Both the position numbers and the translations under genes were made by a program. From positions 1-36,173 of the IMG/VR virus record IMGVR_UViG_3300007519_000037: a stretch of DNA of 36,173 nucleotides; one strand, 5' to 3'. The DNA comes from a virus. Below, piece after piece: positions 4,221 to 12,932 of this stretch. Each line of letters opens with the position of its first letter. The first letter of the stretch is position 1. The notes below the pieces were generated by a model, which was given only the letters and a program-made list of their open reading frames with translations, was not told the DNA's origin and ran no database searches.

Positions 4221-5108
4221 ATGAGTGAATTTTTTAATTATTCGAGTTCAGCTAGAACTCAATTCAATCCCGAAACAGTTGAAGGACCAATATGGTCCGA
4301 TTTCTCAAGTTCATCAGAACATGCTAAAATGCTTGTTCGCGCGAAGCAAGTGAACGATGAAAACTATTGGAATTGTATGAGAGAAGTGTTTGATCACGAT
4401 TGTGATACACTTCCGATGTCACGATTTAAAGCATGGGTGTCTGTATGGAATGTTCCGCTAATGTCCATGTCTAGACATTCTGTTTACATCAAAGAAGCTC
4501 TTACGTCCCCACCACAAATACAAGATCTTATACAAGATCCTGGTGTTGGTTGTAATAGACAAGATTTGGATCAATATCTTAAAGTCTTTTCAGACAACGA
4601 TATGACGATGAATCGTATTCAACATTACGGCCATCTTAAATATTTTCAATTCAAACCCAAAGATTATAAAACAATAGTCGAGCTTGGCGCCGGCGTTGGA
4701 GACATGGCCGATTTAGTTTACAAACTCGGTTTCAATGGAACATATTCCATCTTCGATTTTACTGAAGTGTCTCGTATACAAAGGTATTATCATGATGCTC
4801 TTGGTCATACTGATATTACATACACAGACAATGCAGATGATCTTGAGCCTGCCGATCTTTGTATCGCAACATGGTCTCTTACAGAAATGCCATTCGATTT
4901 AAGAGATCAAATCTTAGATAAAATTGGTACGACTAAAACATGGCTCATCGCATATTCGAGAAACATTTTCGGATATGATAATGAGAAATGGATTAATGAA
5001 ATATTTTTAAAAAGATCTGAATTGAAAAATGCTAAAACCACAATCGTAGACATCCCCTGGATGGATTGGGACGGGGGAACTAAATATCTATTCGTTGAGA
5101 GGGTTTAA
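4221..5108 (+). CDS. SAM-dependent methyltransferase, putative
   Basis: 295 residues. A Rossmann methyltransferase motif I, IVELGAGVGDMADL, lies at residues 152-165. A motif II-like acidic end (YSIFDF, 176-181) and a motif IV/post-IV region (LCIATWSLTEMPFDLRDQI, 213-231) follow. The helical N-terminal 140 residues resemble an extra domain seen in phage and bacterial 'putative sugar O-methyltransferases'. The substrate is unknown: sugar, nucleotide or protein. It follows the gp32 terminator and its ribosome-binding site is weak (TTGGAA). Its last 29 bases overlap, tail to tail, the end of the leftward peptidase gene. Confidence 0.72.
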   Translation: MSEFFNYSSSARTQFNPETVEGPIWSDFSSSSEHAKMLVRAKQVNDENYWNCMREVFDHDCDTLPMSRFKAWVSVWNVPLMSMSRHSVYIKEALTSPPQIQDLIQDPGVGCNRQDLDQYLKVFSDNDMTMNRIQHYGHLKYFQFKPKDYKTIVELGAGVGDMADLVYKLGFNGTYSIFDFTEVSRIQRYYHDALGHTDITYTDNADDLEPADLCIATWSLTEMPFDLRDQILDKIGTTKTWLIAYSRNIFGYDNEKWINEIFLKRSELKNAKTTIVDIPWMDWDGGTKYLFVERV

Positions 5109-7140
5109 ACCCAAAATACAATAGATAATCACTTACAACAGATCTATCATTAGAGGAGGGCGGTGTTTGAATCGTTCCTCCTCTTTTGTTTATGTTCGGC
5201 ATGTCTAATGCTATTTCTTTTTTAATATCTTTTTCGACAGTTCGATCAACAGCATCTGCGTACTTTTTAGCACTGAATTCACCTATCTTATTAACTTTTC
5301 CACTGGCAATTTCTGCTAATGTTCCCATATATTCACTATCAGTTTTAGCTAACCCGCCAATAATTCCGGCAAGTTTCTTCAGCGGGTCTTCAATAATATT
5401 TGGTATATATTCAGAATCAACACTTTCAGTTGAAGGACCTCCAGGTGCCGAAGAAAACTTTCCTCCACCTCCACCTTTCCAATACGACCGCGGATTAGCT
5501 CCCTTTGTTCCAGTCTGCACATGAAGATGATTCTGGTGTGCTTTGTCAGCTTTCCATAGGACATTATATCCAGCGGCGGTTAGTTCATCGGCAAGATTAT
5601 CAAATTCTTTATTCCATCTAGGCGAATTTGCTTCAACTATTCCACCTGGTGCATTAACATCAAGAGCCTTACCATCTGGATGCGATGATTTTTTGTTGCC
5701 ACGATTTAAATCAAGACTAGCACCCAGACCTTTCTTTTCAAGCCATTTTTTCAGAGCTCTGATATTATTGCGGGGCGGAGAATCTTCGCTTTTAGATTTA
5801 ACCTTTTCGGGCTTATTCTTTTCTTTGTCAGTGATTCTCCATTTGTCAGCGTCACTTCTAACCTGCACTGGTGTTCTATTTGTGGTTACTTTAACGGCTG
5901 GTTTTGCTGGTGCTTTTGCTGGAGCTTTAGTTGCCGGCTTTGATTGTGTCTTCGCTACAGGAGCCGGAGGCTTTGCTGGTGCTTTTGCTGGAGCTTTAGT
6001 TGCTGGCTTTGCTAGTGCTTTTGCTGGAGCTTTAGTTGCTGGCTTTGCTGGTGCTTTAGTTGCTGGCTTTGATTGTTCTGTAGGAGCTTTTTGCTCTATC
6101 GATTTAACATATTTAGATAGTAGCTCTTGTGGTTTAACATATTCAGATAGCTCTTGTGGTTTAGTGTAATCTTCTGCACCGTAAGGTTTTTCTTTAAGTT
6201 CATCGAAAAACCCTACTATCGCATTAGCAAGTGGAAATAATGCGACAGCTAGTGCACCAAGAGCAACCGACATCAATCCTATTTGTGATTCTTCTTCGCC
6301 TTCACCTTCTAGTTTTTTGGATGTAAATAAGCCCTTACTAGAAGCAGAGACTTTTTCTATAAATGATTCTCTCGCATCTGCCCCTCTATCTTTTTCAATC
6401 TCATATTGATTATCTATATCTTTAGCTATAGTTTCATTTATAAGCTCTAGTTTACTTATAGCTTTAACCAACAGAGAGGATGACTCTGATGACCAATTCT
6501 TATTTTTCTTTTTAACTCTAGTTGGTTTATTTTTATCAATAAAAGATTCATCTTCTTTAACAATTTTTGCAGCGGCTGGAATGTTATCAGACATTTCAGC
6601 AATAGCCTTTGTGGTAACAAATCTTTGAAGAAGTTTCTGAATAGAATCAGGAGCTTTTCTGTTACCAGGGCTCATAACCCAATGCTTGTTTTCTATATCG
6701 AATGTATATTTAGTATCACCGATCAGTACTGGTTCAACACCGCGATCTTGTAGCAGTTCAGTTGGCTGATTTTTAGTACCAGTTGCTTTTTCAATAAGTG
6801 GTATTAATTCTTTAGATGCGTGCTTCTTAGTTTTAGCATCTATCCAACCCTTTTTCTTATTATAAACAAATTTTTGTCCAGCAATAGTAATTGCTGTTGC
6901 TGCTTCTTCTGGTTCTTTTTCTGTTTTCTCTTCAGCAGCATTCTGTTCTCTAACACGAACAGCCGATTCATCTTGAATGTGTGGGTGTGGTGGTGTACCA
7001 GCCGGTGAAAATTTACCTTCATGTATCACGTCGATAAGTGACTGTAATGCTTTGTTTGCAATTATTCCAGTCTTTTCTTCTACCCAACCATTTTGACTAT
7101 GTACATATTTTTCATCACCGATAGTTACTGGCTGTTTCAT
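5080..7140 (-). CDS. Tail-associated protein with M15-type D,D/L,D-peptidase domain
   Basis: 686 residues. Three degenerate repeats open the protein (about 4-39, 84-119, 137-173), each with I(G/A)(D/G)..KY/F.....GW/HW followed by a helix. A basic linker is followed by a membrane segment (286-312, IGLMSVALGALAVALFPLAN..), then Lys/Pro/Ala-rich repeats (about 357-418, KPATKAPAKAPAK type). Residues 455-550 resemble VanY/M15 peptidases: SHPDGKALDV gives H487 and D494, and NHLHV gives H538/H540 as zinc ligands. Such enzymes cut peptidoglycan peptides. It overlaps the lysozyme-domain gene by ATGA and both end in a short Tyr..FGF segment, so they probably act together in local wall degradation at infection. 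A free endolysin is less likely because it sits in a tail operon. Confidence 0.72.
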   Translation of the reverse strand: MKQPVTIGDEKYVHSQNGWVEEKTGIIANKALQSLIDVIHEGKFSPAGTPPHPHIQDESAVRVREQNAAEEKTEKEPEEAATAITIAGQKFVYNKKKGWIDAKTKKHASKELIPLIEKATGTKNQPTELLQDRGVEPVLIGDTKYTFDIENKHWVMSPGNRKAPDSIQKLLQRFVTTKAIAEMSDNIPAAAKIVKEDESFIDKNKPTRVKKKNKNWSSESSSLLVKAISKLELINETIAKDIDNQYEIEKDRGADARESFIEKVSASSKGLFTSKKLEGEGEEESQIGLMSVALGALAVALFPLANAIVGFFDELKEKPYGAEDYTKPQELSEYVKPQELLSKYVKSIEQKAPTEQSKPATKAPAKPATKAPAKALAKPATKAPAKAPAKPPAPVAKTQSKPATKAPAKAPAKPAVKVTTNRTPVQVRSDADKWRITDKEKNKPEKVKSKSEDSPPRNNIRALKKWLEKKGLGASLDLNRGNKKSSHPDGKALDVNAPGGIVEANSPRWNKEFDNLADELTAAGYNVLWKADKAHQNHLHVQTGTKGANPRSYWKGGGGGKFSSAPGGPSTESVDSEYIPNIIEDPLKKLAGIIGGLAKTDSEYMGTLAEIASGKVNKIGEFSAKKYADAVDRTVEKDIKKEIALDMPNINKRGGTIQTPPSSNDRSVVSDYLLYFGFKPSQRIDI
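5152..5188 (+). terminator. Rightward terminator embedded in an opposing coding region
   Basis: AGAGGAGG (5152-5159) pairs perfectly with CCTCCTCT (5177-5184) across a 17-base loop, followed by TTTGTTT. It lies 44 bases after the methyltransferase stop, on the correct strand to end rightward transcription before it runs into the leftward tail operon. The same bases encode Arg-Gly-Gly and Pro-Ser-Ser codons near the end of the minus-strand gene. The opposite strand has no U-run, so it should be directional. Confidence 0.5.
5893..6072 (-). repeat. Lys-Pro-Ala-rich low-complexity repeat tract
   Basis: Short near-identical units encoding KPATKAPAKA-type peptides are repeated within residues 357-416 of the peptidase protein. 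On the + strand they read as recurring GCTGGCTTTGCTGG / GCTTTTGCTGGAGC words. The tract is histone-H1-like: flexible, basic, and prone to unit gain or loss by slippage. It separates the membrane segment from the peptidase domain. Confidence 0.8.
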
Positions 7141-8906
7141 TTAGCAAATCCAAAAAATCTGATATATCCAGTAACTATATTCTTATCATCAGTTTTATAA
7201 TTAGGATTGATGACGTCTAATGAACCACCATTTATTGATCTTATAACCGATGGTATGTCTAATGGACCAGCTCCCTGATCATTAGTGGTTTCTTTCTTCA
7301 TCATACCTTTAATAGCGTTTGTTTCCATCTCCATATTTTTCTTATAAAGATCTAAATATTTTGTATTGTCTGGCGCTTCAATGGTGGCTGGTTTATATGT
7401 TGAATCAGTTTTAGCAAGACCTTTAAGTGGAGCCAATCCTTTTCTAAGCATTTCTGCAACAGTAATATTTTCTTCTTCTGGATTTACTTCCTCTGCTGCT
7501 CCATTAGATGAAACTTTTACACCATCATTAGAAATAGTTTTTTGCGGTTTAAAACCAACATAATTACCAACTTCATGTGAAATTATCATGTTCTTGGCTT
7601 TAGAGAATGGCATGCCACGATAATCTACATTGTCTGGCAAAGCGGCCCACGTCATAGTAGCGACGTCTGCATTATTTCTATTTTGATTCCAGTAATACTC
7701 ACCCAAGATGTCTTGAGTTCCCTTATCAAATTTTAATTTCTTCCAGTCTTTACCGAGAGCTGCGGGAGCTATTGTTTGTATAGTTGCTTTAGTAAATTGA
7801 TATGCACCTACAGGTGAATGCCCGCGCTTGTCTAATTTTTCTCCACCTTTTTCTTTTGCCTTTTGTTGTGTTACGGCTAAGAGCGTGTCCTGAAATTGTA
7901 AAACTTCTTCTATTGTGAGGCTTGATAATTTTTTATTGAATGTTGATTGTGGAGATGTATATTTACCGTTACCAAAGACTATATCATAAGCAGACTGTGG
8001 TGCATTCATCACAACATCTTCTTTTTTCTTAGCTTTCTCTGCATCTTTCTGATGTGGTAGTTTTTCCCCTGGCTTTACTATATTAAATAATCCCGGTTCT
8101 GATTGAATCCAAGTTTTTCCACCAAGAGCGCGATTTTGTCTTTTAATCGATTCAGTTTCACGTTTAGCTACATCTGCAGCATTTGGTTTTCTTACATTAA
8201 AGAGCCCTTCTGGTTCTAGATAATTTCCAAGTTCAGAGAGTTTATCGCCGAATGAAGCATTGGCCTTTTTAAATTCACCTTTCTCTAATAGTGTAAGTAT
8301 TTCTGCAGCCGCCTGGCCAACAGCATTAATGTTAGATGCGATTTTTGTTACTGCAACAATTTTATCAGAAATCCAGTCAATATCTTCCTTGGTAAGAGTC
8401 AATGCTTTTATTGCTAAAAGTAAACCGCCAATTTTTAATAATGGAGATAATAATGAACTTCCAGCATTTTTAATTTTTTCTCCGGCGTCACCTCGCCATT
8501 CTTTTCTTCTTAGAGCACCAACACTAAGATGATCGTTGGCAGACTCAATTATAGTTTCGCGAGAATTTGCCGACTTAACTTTTTCTACATTTTTATCAAA
8601 TTCAATTCTTGCTTTTAGATTTTCATTAATTGAATCTAAATGCTCTATCATAACACCGAGAAGTTGTTCTACTGGCATTTTAGAATTAACACTAGAGCGA
8701 GTTGCAACCTTCGCTGCTGGTGGTACAACAGAACCACCGATAGAACTAAGTGTGTCGTTCTCAGTATTAGATGCCAATGCACCACCGAAGGTATCGTTCA
8801 CTGCTCTATTAATAGGCTTCGACTTATCTTCATCAGAAAGTGCTCCTTTCAGACCACCTCCAACTATTTTTGATTTAACCATCGTTCCTATTATTGCTGG
8901 CAACAT
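7137..8906 (-). CDS. Tail protein with lysozyme-like (GH104-type) domain; possible tape-measure/hub
   Basis: 589 residues, about the length of T4 gp29 (590), in the tape-measure position after gp26 and the frameshift ORF. Residues 1-150 are polar, with a helical stretch QLLGVMIEHLDSINENLKAR (81-100). A hydrophobic segment at 151-171 (SLLSPLLKIGGLLLAIKALTL) follows. Two copies of (E)P(E)GLFN(V/I).KP occur at 231-241 and 269-279. Residues 304-447 resemble the lysozyme/transglycosylase domain of phage tail and lambda-R-type proteins: YDIVFGNGKY..P, LTIEEVLQFQ, SPVGAYQFTKATI, FDKGTQDILGEYYW. It probably cleaves glycan strands at the infection site; the catalytic residue is not certain. Its ATG abuts the upstream TAA. 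Whether it is the tape measure or a separate virion muramidase cannot be decided from sequence alone. Confidence 0.68.
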   Translation of the reverse strand: MLPAIIGTMVKSKIVGGGLKGALSDEDKSKPINRAVNDTFGGALASNTENDTLSSIGGSVVPPAAKVATRSSVNSKMPVEQLLGVMIEHLDSINENLKARIEFDKNVEKVKSANSRETIIESANDHLSVGALRRKEWRGDAGEKIKNAGSSLLSPLLKIGGLLLAIKALTLTKEDIDWISDKIVAVTKIASNINAVGQAAAEILTLLEKGEFKKANASFGDKLSELGNYLEPEGLFNVRKPNAADVAKRETESIKRQNRALGGKTWIQSEPGLFNIVKPGEKLPHQKDAEKAKKKEDVVMNAPQSAYDIVFGNGKYTSPQSTFNKKLSSLTIEEVLQFQDTLLAVTQQKAKEKGGEKLDKRGHSPVGAYQFTKATIQTIAPAALGKDWKKLKFDKGTQDILGEYYWNQNRNNADVATMTWAALPDNVDYRGMPFSKAKNMIISHEVGNYVGFKPQKTISNDGVKVSSNGAAEEVNPEEENITVAEMLRKGLAPLKGLAKTDSTYKPATIEAPDNTKYLDLYKKNMEMETNAIKGMMKKETTNDQGAGPLDIPSVIRSINGGSLDVINPNYKTDDKNIVTGYIRFFGFAK

Positions 8907-9095
8907 TTACTTTAAACTTCTTTTCTCTATTTCTTTTCGTTGTTCTTCTAGATATTGTAAAAGCATGTCAACATATATGTCTCTTTCGAATGGTATAAGT
9001 TGTTCAATATCAGTTATTGAATATTTGTGGTGCTGAGCCAGAGCGAATATTAATTTATAATATTCAGCAAGACTGATATGACTCAGCGCTACATA
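8907..9095 (-). CDS. -1-frame extension of gp26 (gp51/tail-assembly-chaperone-like), frameshift product
   Basis: From base 9095, the frame -1 to gp26 is open for 62 codons to TAA 8907-8909: YVALSHISLAEYYKLIFALA, then a basic linker, then DIEQLIPFERDIYVDMLLQY and a charged helix. The 'DIE.LIPFERDIYV.ML' segment resembles small gp51 or chaperone-like proteins of phage tails. No ATG, GTG or TTG occurs between the upstream stop in this frame and residue 44 of the extension, and no Shine-Dalgarno is evident. Expression by -1 slippage on T TTT TTT (9101-9095) gives a fusion of 232 gp26 residues plus 62, i.e. 294. A CTG start at residue 4 of the extension (LSHIS) is an alternative. The next gene starts at the adjacent base (TAA ATG). 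Confidence 0.65.
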   Translation of the reverse strand, partial: YVALSHISLAEYYKLIFALAQHHKYSITDIEQLIPFERDIYVDMLLQYLEEQRKEIEKRSLK

Positions 9096-9790
9096 AAAAA
9101 ATCTTTTACTCCAGTAAGAATAATCGATCTTTCCACACCATTATCATTTACATAATTAAGTTCCTTTGTAAGCTTTGGCATTTTTTCAAAGAAGTCTTTC
9201 ATCTTATCAAATGTTTTACCTGGCAGTGTGTCTAAGTAATCTACTTTTTCTTGAAATGTGTATTCGCTAAATAGATATAAATCATCTCCATCTGTAATTG
9301 TATCTAAGCAATTTACAATAAAGAACGTCATTAATTCTACATTGTCTTCAAAGACAGGTGCATCTTCAACAATCTGTGCTGGTGGATATTTCATAGTAAG
9401 AATAACCGTATCATTAATTTTGATGTTTTTTTCAACCTCAAGAATTTCTATTTCAAGTTCATCTAAGTCTATTTCGAAATCACGTATCTTTTCATCTTCT
9501 TTATCTCTATAAGAAACAGTAACCATATTGTTAACAGATTTTGCTCTTATTTTTAAGAAGAGATATTCTAAATCAAAGCTTGCAAAATCACGAACATCAA
9601 ATTCAGTATCTATAACACAGTTGTTAACAATTTGTATCATGGCTTTAATGATGGTAAGTTCATTCCCATCTTCTTGTGCTATAAGAAGTATCTTTTCTTC
9701 TTTAACATTGAATTGTCTATATGAAATTACTTTCTTTGTAGATGGTATTGTCAATTCAAATAGTGGTTGATTTATAATTTTAGGTAACAT
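9089..9790 (-). CDS. 26: Baseplate hub assembly protein gp26 (T4_baseplate family)
   Basis: 233 residues (T4 gp26 has 208). The N-terminal half follows the family: LPKIINQPLFELTIPSTKKV, YRQFNVKEEKILL, an Ile/Val-rich NNCV segment, then FDLEYLFLKIRAKSV, IDLDEL.IE and a VILTMKYPPAQ strand. T4 gp26 is needed for hub assembly and is scarce or absent in the finished baseplate, i.e. chaperone-like. The start at 9790 has GGAG 8 bases upstream. The 3' end carries a T7 slippery run that probably lets a fraction of ribosomes continue into a 62-codon extension. It sits in the leftward tail operon after the gp54-like gene. Confidence 0.85.
   Translation of the reverse strand: MLPKIINQPLFELTIPSTKKVISYRQFNVKEEKILLIAQEDGNELTIIKAMIQIVNNCVIDTEFDVRDFASFDLEYLFLKIRAKSVNNMVTVSYRDKEDEKIRDFEIDLDELEIEILEVEKNIKINDTVILTMKYPPAQIVEDAPVFEDNVELMTFFIVNCLDTITDGDDLYLFSEYTFQEKVDYLDTLPGKTFDKMKDFFEKMPKLTKELNYVNDNGVERSIILTGVKDFFM
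9095..9101 (-). promoter_or_regulatory. Slippery heptamer T TTT TTT, candidate programmed -1 frameshift site
   Basis: On the minus strand gp26 ends GAT TTT TTT ATG TAG. The seven T's form X XXY YYZ in exactly the 0-frame register required for tandem -1 slippage. The 0-frame terminates two codons later, while the -1 frame stays open 62 codons. A weak downstream stem (CTGA/TCAG with a 6-base loop, 9072-9085) begins about 9 bases after the heptamer. Confidence 0.6.
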
Positions 9791-9808: not shown

Positions 9809-10618
9809 TTAAAATGAGCCCGTGAAAATCTTACCAAACAGGTCGGTTTTATTTCCAGTAAACTCTGCGTATCTAGCATCATTAAATTGTGCTTGGATAG
9901 TCGCGAAATCGTTAAAAATTCTTTGTGGTATTTCTGCTGTATTTTTAGGTGTTATGATATTAATATCTGTGTATGAAAATTCTATAGAAAGCTTAAGAGC
10001 GCTGTCTTGTTCTCCCCAGGAAACTGGGACATCATTTATCGCGGATGGAAACACATCGAATATTTCATATATGACAACTTGATCTAATGCATTATCATAA
10101 ATAAAAATATTCATTTTTGGATTGGAATACGAATCTTTATATCCAAGTTCATATGGACTATAATTAAGACCGCCCATTGTCGACGTGCTGACCATGTCTC
10201 TACCGCCAGCAGAATCATAATTAACAATAGTTTTCATCCACATATTAAAAAATTCCATTATTTTTCCACGAGTGTCCAATACCCAGTTCAATGTAATATC
10301 ATTAAACTGTGCTGAATACGGAACTCTTTCAATTGGACCGTATCCATATCTTCTAATGGTTTCATCTTTAAGTAATCTTATTCCTGGAAGAATTGCACTC
10401 TCACATCTCATTGCTAATACACTACCATTATCTGTTATAAAATTACTTAAGTTAAATGCTGGTCCATTATTAAATGGTGAAAATGTTACTAGATAACTGT
10501 GAGTTGGAACAATACCGCTTTGGTTCATTTCAGCTTTAAATGAATCAATATTAAAACGGCTCTGTCGTGTTTTCGGAATATCTGGATATTCACCGACCTG
10601 TCTTTCGAAATTAGACAT
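9809..10618 (-). CDS. 54: gp54-like baseplate tail-tube initiator (tail-tube fold)
   Basis: 269 residues from ATG 10618; an in-frame ATG at 10660 lies well inside the preceding gene and is rejected. Tail-tube-family features: an N-terminal arm, then SYLVTFSPF, MRCESAILPG, the conserved IRRYGYGPIERVPY segment, FNDITLNWVLD, a MEFFNMWMKTIVNYDS helix and YEIFDVFPSAINDVPVSWGE..LKLSIEFSYTD. In T4, gp54 and gp48 cap the baseplate and template polymerisation of the gp19 tube. At 269 residues it is longer than gp19 (163) and shorter than gp54 (320). It might instead be the major tail-tube protein; the baseplate operon context favours gp54. Start overlaps the upstream stop by 8 bases. Confidence 0.65.
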   Translation of the reverse strand: MSNFERQVGEYPDIPKTRQSRFNIDSFKAEMNQSGIVPTHSYLVTFSPFNNGPAFNLSNFITDNGSVLAMRCESAILPGIRLLKDETIRRYGYGPIERVPYSAQFNDITLNWVLDTRGKIMEFFNMWMKTIVNYDSAGGRDMVSTSTMGGLNYSPYELGYKDSYSNPKMNIFIYDNALDQVVIYEIFDVFPSAINDVPVSWGEQDSALKLSIEFSYTDINIITPKNTAEIPQRIFNDFATIQAQFNDARYAEFTGNKTDLFGKIFTGSF

Positions 10619-11210
10619 TATATATTGCCTTTTCTGAGTCTGCATAAACACGATTAGCACCGCGCTTTTGGAATCTAGCTAGTGGAAGGAAAATCGCAAT
10701 GTCCCATTCTGAGGGATATATGTACATGAAATTGGATCTTACTTGAGTATTTAAATAATGTTTAATACACGGTTTGAAATATCTTAGTTTAGATATAGAA
10801 TTAAGTAATTGATAGTTCATTCTTAGTTTTGTCGTTTCATCAAATCTACCATTATTTGCCAGATCGTACAATCCATCCATCAGTCGTGCTCTAAGTCTTG
10901 GTGTCAGATAATGAAGATTAATTCCGTAGAATCCACCTTTGACTACTTTGAATGGAAATATGAGTGGAAGCCTATCCCAGTATGGTAGTGTGTCTTTAAA
11001 TTTAGCATCGTAACTAAATAGATACATAGAGCCAACTTTTGGTGTCATGACGGCTCTTTTTGTGTCGCTCATCAGTTTCTTTTCGTTAACTCTTTTAACC
11101 GAAGCCTTTGTTGTTTGTCTATACCACTCGCGTGCTTCTTTGGTTCTCGCTGGCACTTGCCCCGATCTCATACCTTTAGTAACAATATCGTCAAAAATCT
11201 GTTTTGACAT
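10611..11210 (-). CDS. gp2-like putative DNA end protector
   Basis: 199 residues. A basic helical N terminus (about 1-50, many Lys/Arg) precedes the conserved stretch GSMYLFSYDAKFKDTLPYWD-RLPLIFPF and GGFYGINLHYLTPRLRARLMD, then a helical region (KLRMNYQLLNSISK..YFKPCIKHYL) and SEWDIAIFLPLARFQK. I recall this 'KD.LPYYDR.PL..P......GFYG.NLHYL.P..RA.L.D' pattern from T4-like phages, where it is annotated as gp2 (caps virion DNA ends against host nuclease) or left hypothetical. T4 gene 2 is also adjacent to gene 4, which supports the call. GGAG lies 6 bases before the ATG. Function is inferred from context. Confidence 0.5.
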   Translation of the reverse strand: MSKQIFDDIVTKGMRSGQVPARTKEAREWYRQTTKASVKRVNEKKLMSDTKRAVMTPKVGSMYLFSYDAKFKDTLPYWDRLPLIFPFKVVKGGFYGINLHYLTPRLRARLMDGLYDLANNGRFDETTKLRMNYQLLNSISKLRYFKPCIKHYLNTQVRSNFMYIYPSEWDIAIFLPLARFQKRGANRVYADSEKAIYNV

Positions 11211-11236: not shown

Positions 11237-11686
11237 TCAAAATTTCAGGTTGAGTTCTTTTTCTGTTATAACTACCCAGTCCCAACCCTTATTGGCACAA
11301 ACCGTCTTCGCTGCTTTCCACTTGGCATCATTTATTGCCCATGTATGTACTTCATTCAAATATCGTCTAGATGGTTTGCCCTTCTGAGCACGTGGTGGTT
11401 GTGTTTGAGCAAATGGTTTTACTTCAACTAATATTTCGCTTATTTTACCATCTGAATGATTTCTTTTCTTCACGTAAAAATCAGGAAAATATCTATGGAC
11501 TTTGTTATCTACCGGTGACCTGTAGGGGATTATTATTTCTTCAGAACCCCATTCTATAACATCAGGATGTGTATCTAATTTAGACATCACAATAAGCTCC
11601 CACCTACTCCTATATACAATATTAGAAGGGTCTCCAGTGTATTTTTTGGGATTTTTTGGTCTAAATTTACCTCTATATGCTACCAT
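11237..11686 (-). CDS. 4: Head completion protein gp4 (nuclease-like)
   Basis: 149 residues from ATG 11686 (T4 gp4 has 150). The frame is open further upstream, but that part overlaps the divergent gene and the promoter. The family pattern is clear: KFRPKNPKKYTGDPSNIVYR, SRWEL, HPDVIEWGSEEIIIPYRSPV, HRYFPDF, ILVEVKP and WVVITEKEL. The 'PDF..E.K' arrangement is a restriction-endonuclease-like (PD-(D/E)XK) active site. gp4 completes filled heads so tails can attach. It is the first gene of the leftward operon. The start codon has no visible Shine-Dalgarno and lies 4 bases after a leftward TATAAATA, which could make its mRNA nearly leaderless. Confidence 0.85.
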   Translation of the reverse strand: MVAYRGKFRPKNPKKYTGDPSNIVYRSRWELIVMSKLDTHPDVIEWGSEEIIIPYRSPVDNKVHRYFPDFYVKKRNHSDGKISEILVEVKPFAQTQPPRAQKGKPSRRYLNEVHTWAINDAKWKAAKTVCANKGWDWVVITEKELNLKF

Positions 11687-11690
11687 TAAA

Positions 11691-11702
11691 TATTTATAAA
11701 TA
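11691..11702. promoter_or_regulatory. Palindromic divergent late promoter, TATTTATAAATA
   Basis: A 12-bp perfect palindrome containing TATAAATA on both strands (rightward 11695-11702, leftward 11698-11691), in the 40-bp gap between gp4 (-) and gp48-like (+). The rightward copy continues AAA, matching the other five + strand promoters of this window. The leftward copy continues TTT and may be weaker. It would drive both tail operons from one site. Confidence 0.65.
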
Positions 11703-11726
11703 AAATAAAAACGAAAAGAGTTTTTA

Positions 11727-12932
11727 ATGAGTCTCCTAAGTAAATTTACAAAAAAGTCTAATTTAGACCCCCTAAAGCGTTTAGCTGATGTCGCGACCCG
11801 ATCTTTAGAAAATAGTTTCGAGAATGCTGTGGAAGATTTATTTTCTAGTGCATTAAGGAAGAGTGGCTTATCATCAAACATTTCTCAACAGCTGTCTTCT
11901 CGTTTTGGTGATGCTCTAAAAAATGAGCTTGCCGACAAATATTTTCAAACGGCATCATCAGAATACAATAGAGTCAGTAGGCAAGAAATATGTGATAATT
12001 TCTTGCCTTCATATGCTGATACTTCATCGTCTTCAGTTAGAAAAATTGACGATAAACTGAAGAATTTGGATGGAACAAATGTAGATGTGCTACAATTTCC
12101 TGGGAATCTTGCTAAGTATTATATGACTATGCAATTTAGACAGTATGTTAGACAGGCCCCACAGCTTCAATCGACATTAAAATTCGATAATGCTATTATT
12201 TTGCCTATACCGAGAAAACTAGAAGACGGATTTTCTCTTAACATAAGTGATTCGAGTCTAGGAACTCCTGGCGCAATTGCAGACGTTATTCAGACGGTGG
12301 CTGCCGGCGCTAAAGAGGGTTATAGTTCAACAAATGCTGTATTATTTTCATTCATGACAAACACTTTAGGTGAACTGAGTAATGATACTAAAGACGCTGT
12401 TACATCGTATCTCGGATCAACACCGAATCCACATGTCGCTGCTATATTTCAGGGTGTAAATCTAAGAGAACATCAATTCGAATGGACTTTTGCTCCCAGA
12501 AATCCAGAAGAAAGTGTTAAACTAAAAAACATAATTCTTAAATTAAAACAAAATTCATTGCCAGCATTTAGTACTATAGGCACTCCAGTTTTTCAATATC
12601 CATTAATGTGCCAGATACAAATGGAACCATGGCATCGCATTGGTGCTGATTTGATAACATATAAGCCTGCGCTATTAAAAGACGTTAAAGTGAACTATTC
12701 ACCGAATGGAATTCCATCATTCTTTGCTGGAACTAATTTACCAACATTTATCAATATCAGTTTATCATTTATAGAAACAACATACTTTACATCTGGTGAT
12801 TTTGATAGAGCCGGCTATGATGATAATCAATTAGAAAAAATAATTGATAAAGCTGGTGACTTGATTCCAGATGGTATAAGAAAATATGTAGGTGAAGTAG
12901 TCGGCGGCGCAGACGATCTAATAAAGGGGTAG
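11727..12932 (+). CDS. 48: gp48-like baseplate tail-tube cap protein
   Basis: 401 residues (T4 gp48 has 364). An amphipathic Leu/Ser-rich N terminus (1-75) precedes a tube-like beta domain ending in LREHQFEWTFAPRNPEESVK with a helix KNIILKLKQNSLPAF, then FQYPLMCQIQMEP, a DVKVNYSPNGIPSFF strand and FINISLSFIETT. This 'H.F.W...P.n..Es..i..I...l+.n.LP' signature, with a terminal oligomerising strand, is shared by gp48, gp54 and gp19 tube-type proteins; gp48 fits by size and by following the divergent promoter. It caps the baseplate with gp54 and starts tube growth. The SD-like GAAAAGAG sits 7 bases before the ATG. gp48 versus another tube-cap protein is not certain. Confidence 0.6.
   Translation: MSLLSKFTKKSNLDPLKRLADVATRSLENSFENAVEDLFSSALRKSGLSSNISQQLSSRFGDALKNELADKYFQTASSEYNRVSRQEICDNFLPSYADTSSSSVRKIDDKLKNLDGTNVDVLQFPGNLAKYYMTMQFRQYVRQAPQLQSTLKFDNAIILPIPRKLEDGFSLNISDSSLGTPGAIADVIQTVAAGAKEGYSSTNAVLFSFMTNTLGELSNDTKDAVTSYLGSTPNPHVAAIFQGVNLREHQFEWTFAPRNPEESVKLKNIILKLKQNSLPAFSTIGTPVFQYPLMCQIQMEPWHRIGADLITYKPALLKDVKVNYSPNGIPSFFAGTNLPTFINISLSFIETTYFTSGDFDRAGYDDNQLEKIIDKAGDLIPDGIRKYVGEVVGGADDLIKG

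Follow-up and report, generated by a model that had tools for sequence, protein, structure and literature searches.

Lambda gpG/gpGT and other -1 tail-assembly chaperones (TACs) consist of a short protein and a longer form made by -1 slippage near the 3' end of the gene into a small extension. In lambda the locus lies between the tail tube gene and a tape-measure-sized gene, and the slippery heptamer is G GGA AAG. A TAC with a conserved -1 shift at a poly-T (GTTTTT) site ending TAC-N has been described in Vandenendeviridae/Andersonviridae (phage Adele; PMC12846349). For T4, PMC3004832 names gp26 and gp51 among the hub assembly chaperones and describes gp51 as essential and of unknown function. 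Vladimirov, Gautam & Davidson (2022) identified T4-like TAC genes, according to two papers that cite that study (PMC10885494, PMC12846349). The PRFect paper (PMC10885494), citing this study, states that certain T4-like phages do without frameshifting and have two TAC genes, a short one and a long fused one, and PMC12846349 credits the same study with poly-T -1 signals in T4-like TAC-N genes. On these accounts, the core idea developed below is not new and has largely been in print since 2022.

We analyzed a 36,173-nucleotide viral sequence (IMG/VR record IMGVR_UViG_3300007519_000037, positions 1 to 36,173; hereafter the window). Sequence comparisons indicate that one of its loci very probably encodes a tail-assembly chaperone and uses a programmed -1 ribosomal frameshift to pass from gp26 into a gp51-like extension. 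The relevant features are:

9809..10660, minus strand: tail tube protein gene, upstream (PHROG_45, E 3.3e-23)
9089..9790, minus strand: gp26-family gene, 233 aa, putative short form of the chaperone (TAC-N, G-like; PF12322, PHROG_150)
9095..9101, minus strand: slippery heptamer T TTT TTT, seven T's in the 0-frame X XXY YYZ register
9089..9091, minus strand: 0-frame stop TAG closing the short form, one codon past the heptamer
8907..9095, minus strand: -1 frame extension, gp51-like C-terminal part (TAC-C, T-like), 62 aa plus TAA, predicted fusion product
9026..9093, minus strand: predicted stimulatory RNA structure (MFE -25.8 kcal/mol, z -4.26, 0/200 shuffles as stable)
9087-9079 with 9040-9032, minus strand: predicted long-range 9-bp stem, GCUGAGUCA with UGGCUCAGC, plus flanking pairs
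9045..9065, minus strand: nested hairpin GAAUAUUA/UAAUAUUC within the long-range stem, in both the MFE and centroid structures
7137..8906, minus strand: next gene, 589 aa, candidate tape measure protein by position and size, with a lytic-enzyme-like stretch

The gene order is tail tube, TAC, candidate tape measure protein; as in lambda, the gene after the TAC is of tape-measure size. Unlike lambda, the window has a different heptamer and a larger gp26 domain, and the family searches returned no lambda-type TAC. The phage Adele TAC differs in its phage families and its slippery motif.

On the minus strand, gp26 ends ...GTA AAA GAT TTT TTT ATG TAG. This reading places the T7 run (9101-9095) in the exact register for -1 slippage, as the first-pass annotation had it, and corrects the spacing given there: one codon (ATG), not two, separates the heptamer from TAG. 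The -1 frame is open for the 62 codons claimed, from TAT (9095-9093) to TAA (8909-8907), and encodes YVALSHISLAEYYKLIFALAQHHKYSITDIEQLIPFERDIYVDMLLQYLEEQRKEIEKRSLK. Two further claims held, that no start codon precedes the middle of the extension (its sole ATG, GTG or TTG comes past residue 43, two thirds in) and that the extension's TAA abuts the next gene (ATG at 8906). At the window's GC content, about 1% of random 62-codon stretches are open. Among the 33 window ORFs of at least 100 aa, only gp26 and one ordinary gene-gene junction have an X XXY YYZ in register close to the end together with 55 or more open -1 codons. The junction is confirmed to be beyond chance, and the decisive evidence is its conservation across relatives.

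The window gp26 matches PF12322 (E 1.8e-48, 165.6 bits against a cut-off of 24.5) and PHROG_150 (E 5e-49). The -1 frame peptide aligns with the latter half of PHROG_634 (gp51, 'baseplate hub assembly catalyst'; E 8.4e-24), a family that all 60 of the 60 extensions from relatives match as well. A profile of the extension aligns to residues 208-244 of T4 gp51 (P 9e-5), and its comparison with T4 gp26 gave no match. With both the gp26 domain and the gp51-type extension matched, the locus belongs to the T4 gp26/gp51 family. An AlphaFold2 model of gp26 reached a pLDDT of 93.9; the extension modelled alone is mostly helical, at moderate confidence (pLDDT 76.5). Foldseek ranked 2ob9 first (E 0.79) and 3fgx fifth (E 1.5) among PDB chains for the gp26 model, neither match being significant; 2OB9 (HK97 gp13) and 3FGX are named as TACs in PMC9603447. 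PDB sequence searches with the gp26 and extension profiles gave matches at chance level only, and an Rfam search at the junction returned nothing meaningful.

Roughly 300 loci, drawn from IMG/VR and public phages, gave 219 unique -1-related junctions. The alignment of related gp26 loci proposed earlier as a check came out in favor of the frameshift: T TTT TTN (T TTT TTT, T TTT TTC or T TTT TTG) occupies the same register in 218 of the 219. In the remaining one (L101) the T7 run is intact, but a premature TAG lies upstream. After clustering of gp26, the heptamer is in register in 61/61 clusters at 70% identity and 19/19 at 50%. Elsewhere in gp26, a six-T run in that register occurs at 2 of 17451 other codon positions. 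For 18 diverse phages, treated as independent, the synonymous choice at the site has a probability of ~1e-13 given each phage's own codon usage. In phages richer in GC, the site runs counter to codon usage: the rest of pf16 gp26 has 13 TTC codons and a single TTT, yet the site reads TTT TTT.

Hosts of the public isolates include Synechococcus, Prochlorococcus, Pelagibacter, Methylophilales, Sinorhizobium, Rhizobium, Pseudomonas, Vibrio, Aeromonas and Desulfovibrio. KVP40 and AS-zj, assigned to Straboviridae in their records, keep the heptamer. A Stenotrophomonas phage whose extension falls below the profile threshold reads GAT TTT TTC GGC TGA with an open -1 frame. A viral-contig search seeded with the Desulfovibrio gp26 found no loci. 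The arrangement had been viewed as a variant hub-assembly system; it is not confined to the window's phage and is the usual one among the non-T-even relatives found.

The extension evolves as a -1 frame protein under purifying selection. In pairwise comparisons of related sequences its median dN/dS is 0.092 in the -1 frame but 1.13 and 1.68 in the remaining two, and that of the last 58 codons of gp26 is 0.112. Together with the PHROG_634 match and the conserved heptamer, this selection strongly supports the earlier proposal of a -1 frameshift into a gp51-like extension.

The RNA downstream of the heptamer is predicted to fold stably. In the window, the inner helix of the predicted stem starts 7 nt past the heptamer. 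Across loci, the 80 nt 3' of the heptamer have a mean z of -2.67, against -0.56 in control windows of the same loci (the representatives are not fully independent). The window and most members of its clade have a strong fold, and several divergent phages have no strong downstream structure. In 36 relatives, 96% of stem cells are paired, with double changes at only 1 of 14 pairs, and both arms encode conserved residues. The stem thus probably helps slippage, a role that is likely rather than proven given the coding arms and the single double-change pair.

T4 encodes the same parts differently. Over their length, T4 gp26 and T4 gp51 each match PF12322 (8.8e-64 and 3.9e-52, respectively) and PHROG_150, and are therefore paralogues. 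They are separate, divergent genes, and gp51 consists of a gp26-like domain with the C-terminal extension fused in frame. T4 gp26 ends GAG TTC TTT GAG, which keeps Phe-Phe and lacks the slippery heptamer; because T4 writes these residues TTC TTT, the heptamer is no by-product of the protein sequence. The earlier statement that T4 uses separate genes without frameshifting is thus supported. The proposal that gp26/gp51 are the T4-type counterpart of G/GT gains strong support from homology, T4 paralogy and the conserved junctions. From this homology, the T4 paralogy and the lack of a heptamer in T4, we infer that the short/long pair arises by -1 frameshifting in the window's phage and by gene duplication in T4. 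T4 gp28 was considered as a third paralogue and rejected: T4 gp26 gave a single weak PHROG match (E 0.00094), and profile comparison gave no support.

In-frame fusions of the extension to a gp26-like domain also occur in RB43, Krischvirus, Campylobacter WX1 and phiKT1024, and a separate short copy stands beside the fusion in T4, RB43, Krischvirus and phiKT1024. In our tree, the T-even 26 and 51 copies group together, and phiKT1024/Campylobacter lie apart. The topology is consistent with at least two duplications, to be read with caution for long-branch effects.

Other explanations of the split frame were weighed against this evidence. Sequencing or assembly error, to which homopolymers are prone, or a decaying pseudogene is effectively refuted: the register is identical in hundreds of independent contigs and isolates, purifying selection is strong in both frames, and the T7 run recurs unchanged in a near-identical contig (L002), which argues against assembly error. 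Slippage of RNA polymerase on the homopolymeric T run, rather than of the ribosome, would give mixed transcripts and an identical protein pair. We consider this very unlikely, since 137 of the 219 junctions have the TTTTTTC form with six T's only, the codon register is fixed as for tandem tRNA slippage, and a stable RNA structure often lies 3' of the site. Efficient transcriptional slippage usually requires longer runs.

Re-initiation or internal initiation might instead produce the extension as a small protein of its own. It is annotated as a gp51 gene separate from gp26 in many records, most of the cyanophage ones among them; in KVP40, D486 and P10VF a -1 frame ATG overlaps the gp26 stop (TAATG or TGATG), and in many cyanophages an ATG lies a few codons in. 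However, the late start codon in the window, the lack of any ATG, GTG or TTG in the extension of Desulfovibrio phage 7757, and the lack of a start in the first 16 residues at 53 further junctions (of 218) make this very unlikely as the general explanation. Independent initiation also leaves the invariant heptamer unexplained, and the extension is fused to a gp26 domain in the five in-frame cases above. Ribosomal frameshifting remains the preferred reading, and a free extension may be made alongside the fusion in KVP40, D486, P10VF and the cyanophages with an early ATG. At three loci, KVP40 (L134, 3004-3171), L152 and L149, the -1 frame ATG lies over the gp26 stop with the heptamer retained, and both fusion and free extension might be made. 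Among public records, those of AS-zj (L142), L137, L139, L146 and others either leave the gp51 extension unannotated or start it at an internal ATG, so that its first residues are lost. Such missing or shortened annotation is as expected when a frameshift product is overlooked.

In the proposed mechanism, most ribosomes would terminate at the TAG at 9089 and release the 233-aa gp26. A minority, probably aided by the RNA stem just 3' of the heptamer, would slip into the -1 frame at T TTT TTT and produce a gp26/gp51-like fusion of ~294 aa with the predicted junction peptide ...VKDFFYVALSHISLAEYYK. On the lambda gpG/gpGT model, coating of the tape measure protein would be the task of the short form, and the extension would recruit tail tube subunits in hub and tail assembly. 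T4 would obtain both products from its duplicated genes, gp26 as the short form and gp51 as the long one. We infer the occurrence of slippage, its ratio and the binding partners; gene architecture, with the weak but top-ranked 2OB9 match, points to a short/long TAC pair function for gp26 and the fusion.

The first-pass annotation placed this G/GT layout before a protein of tape-measure size. The 589-aa gene does follow directly, and its size is close to that of T4 gp29 (590 aa). It was rejected as a gp29 homologue for want of detectable similarity, so its tape measure role is suggested by position and size only and not by homology. Its product matches PHROG_6126 at 324-460 (E 3e-22) and, at residues ~318-411, PDB 11mn_A ('66 kDa protein', E 5e-6), a possible lytic domain within a tape-measure-like protein.

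We also noted features of other genes in the region. A 686-aa protein (5080-7140, minus strand) has a long Ala/Pro/Lys-rich repeat stretch and a C-terminal half that looks peptidase-like by eye; it has no PHROG or Pfam match. Overlapping the end of this gene is a convergent 295-aa ORF (4221-5108, plus strand) that looks methyltransferase-like by eye (VELGAGVGD) and has no PHROG match. A head-closure ORF (11237-11881, minus strand) overlaps the divergent tail-tube-cap gene (11727-12932, plus strand), and its true start is probably internal, as homology begins at residue 68.

The gain over the published idea is one of breadth and detail, and the window is a well-supported further case. The findings support the view that gp51, a hub protein whose function has long been unknown, is the long form of a TAC, and explain why cyanophage 'gp51' annotations often have no credible start. 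They also allow an evolutionary comparison of frameshifting and gene duplication as ways of setting a protein ratio. T TTT TTN frameshifting may be ancestral and near-universal for the hub chaperone pair of the T4 supergroup, with at least two replacements by duplication (in T-even phages and in phiKT1024/Campylobacter). We hold this proposal to be evenly balanced between true and false: the tree is consistent with ancestral frameshifting, but its branches are long. If true, these phages would provide a natural test set for the importance of the short:long ratio.
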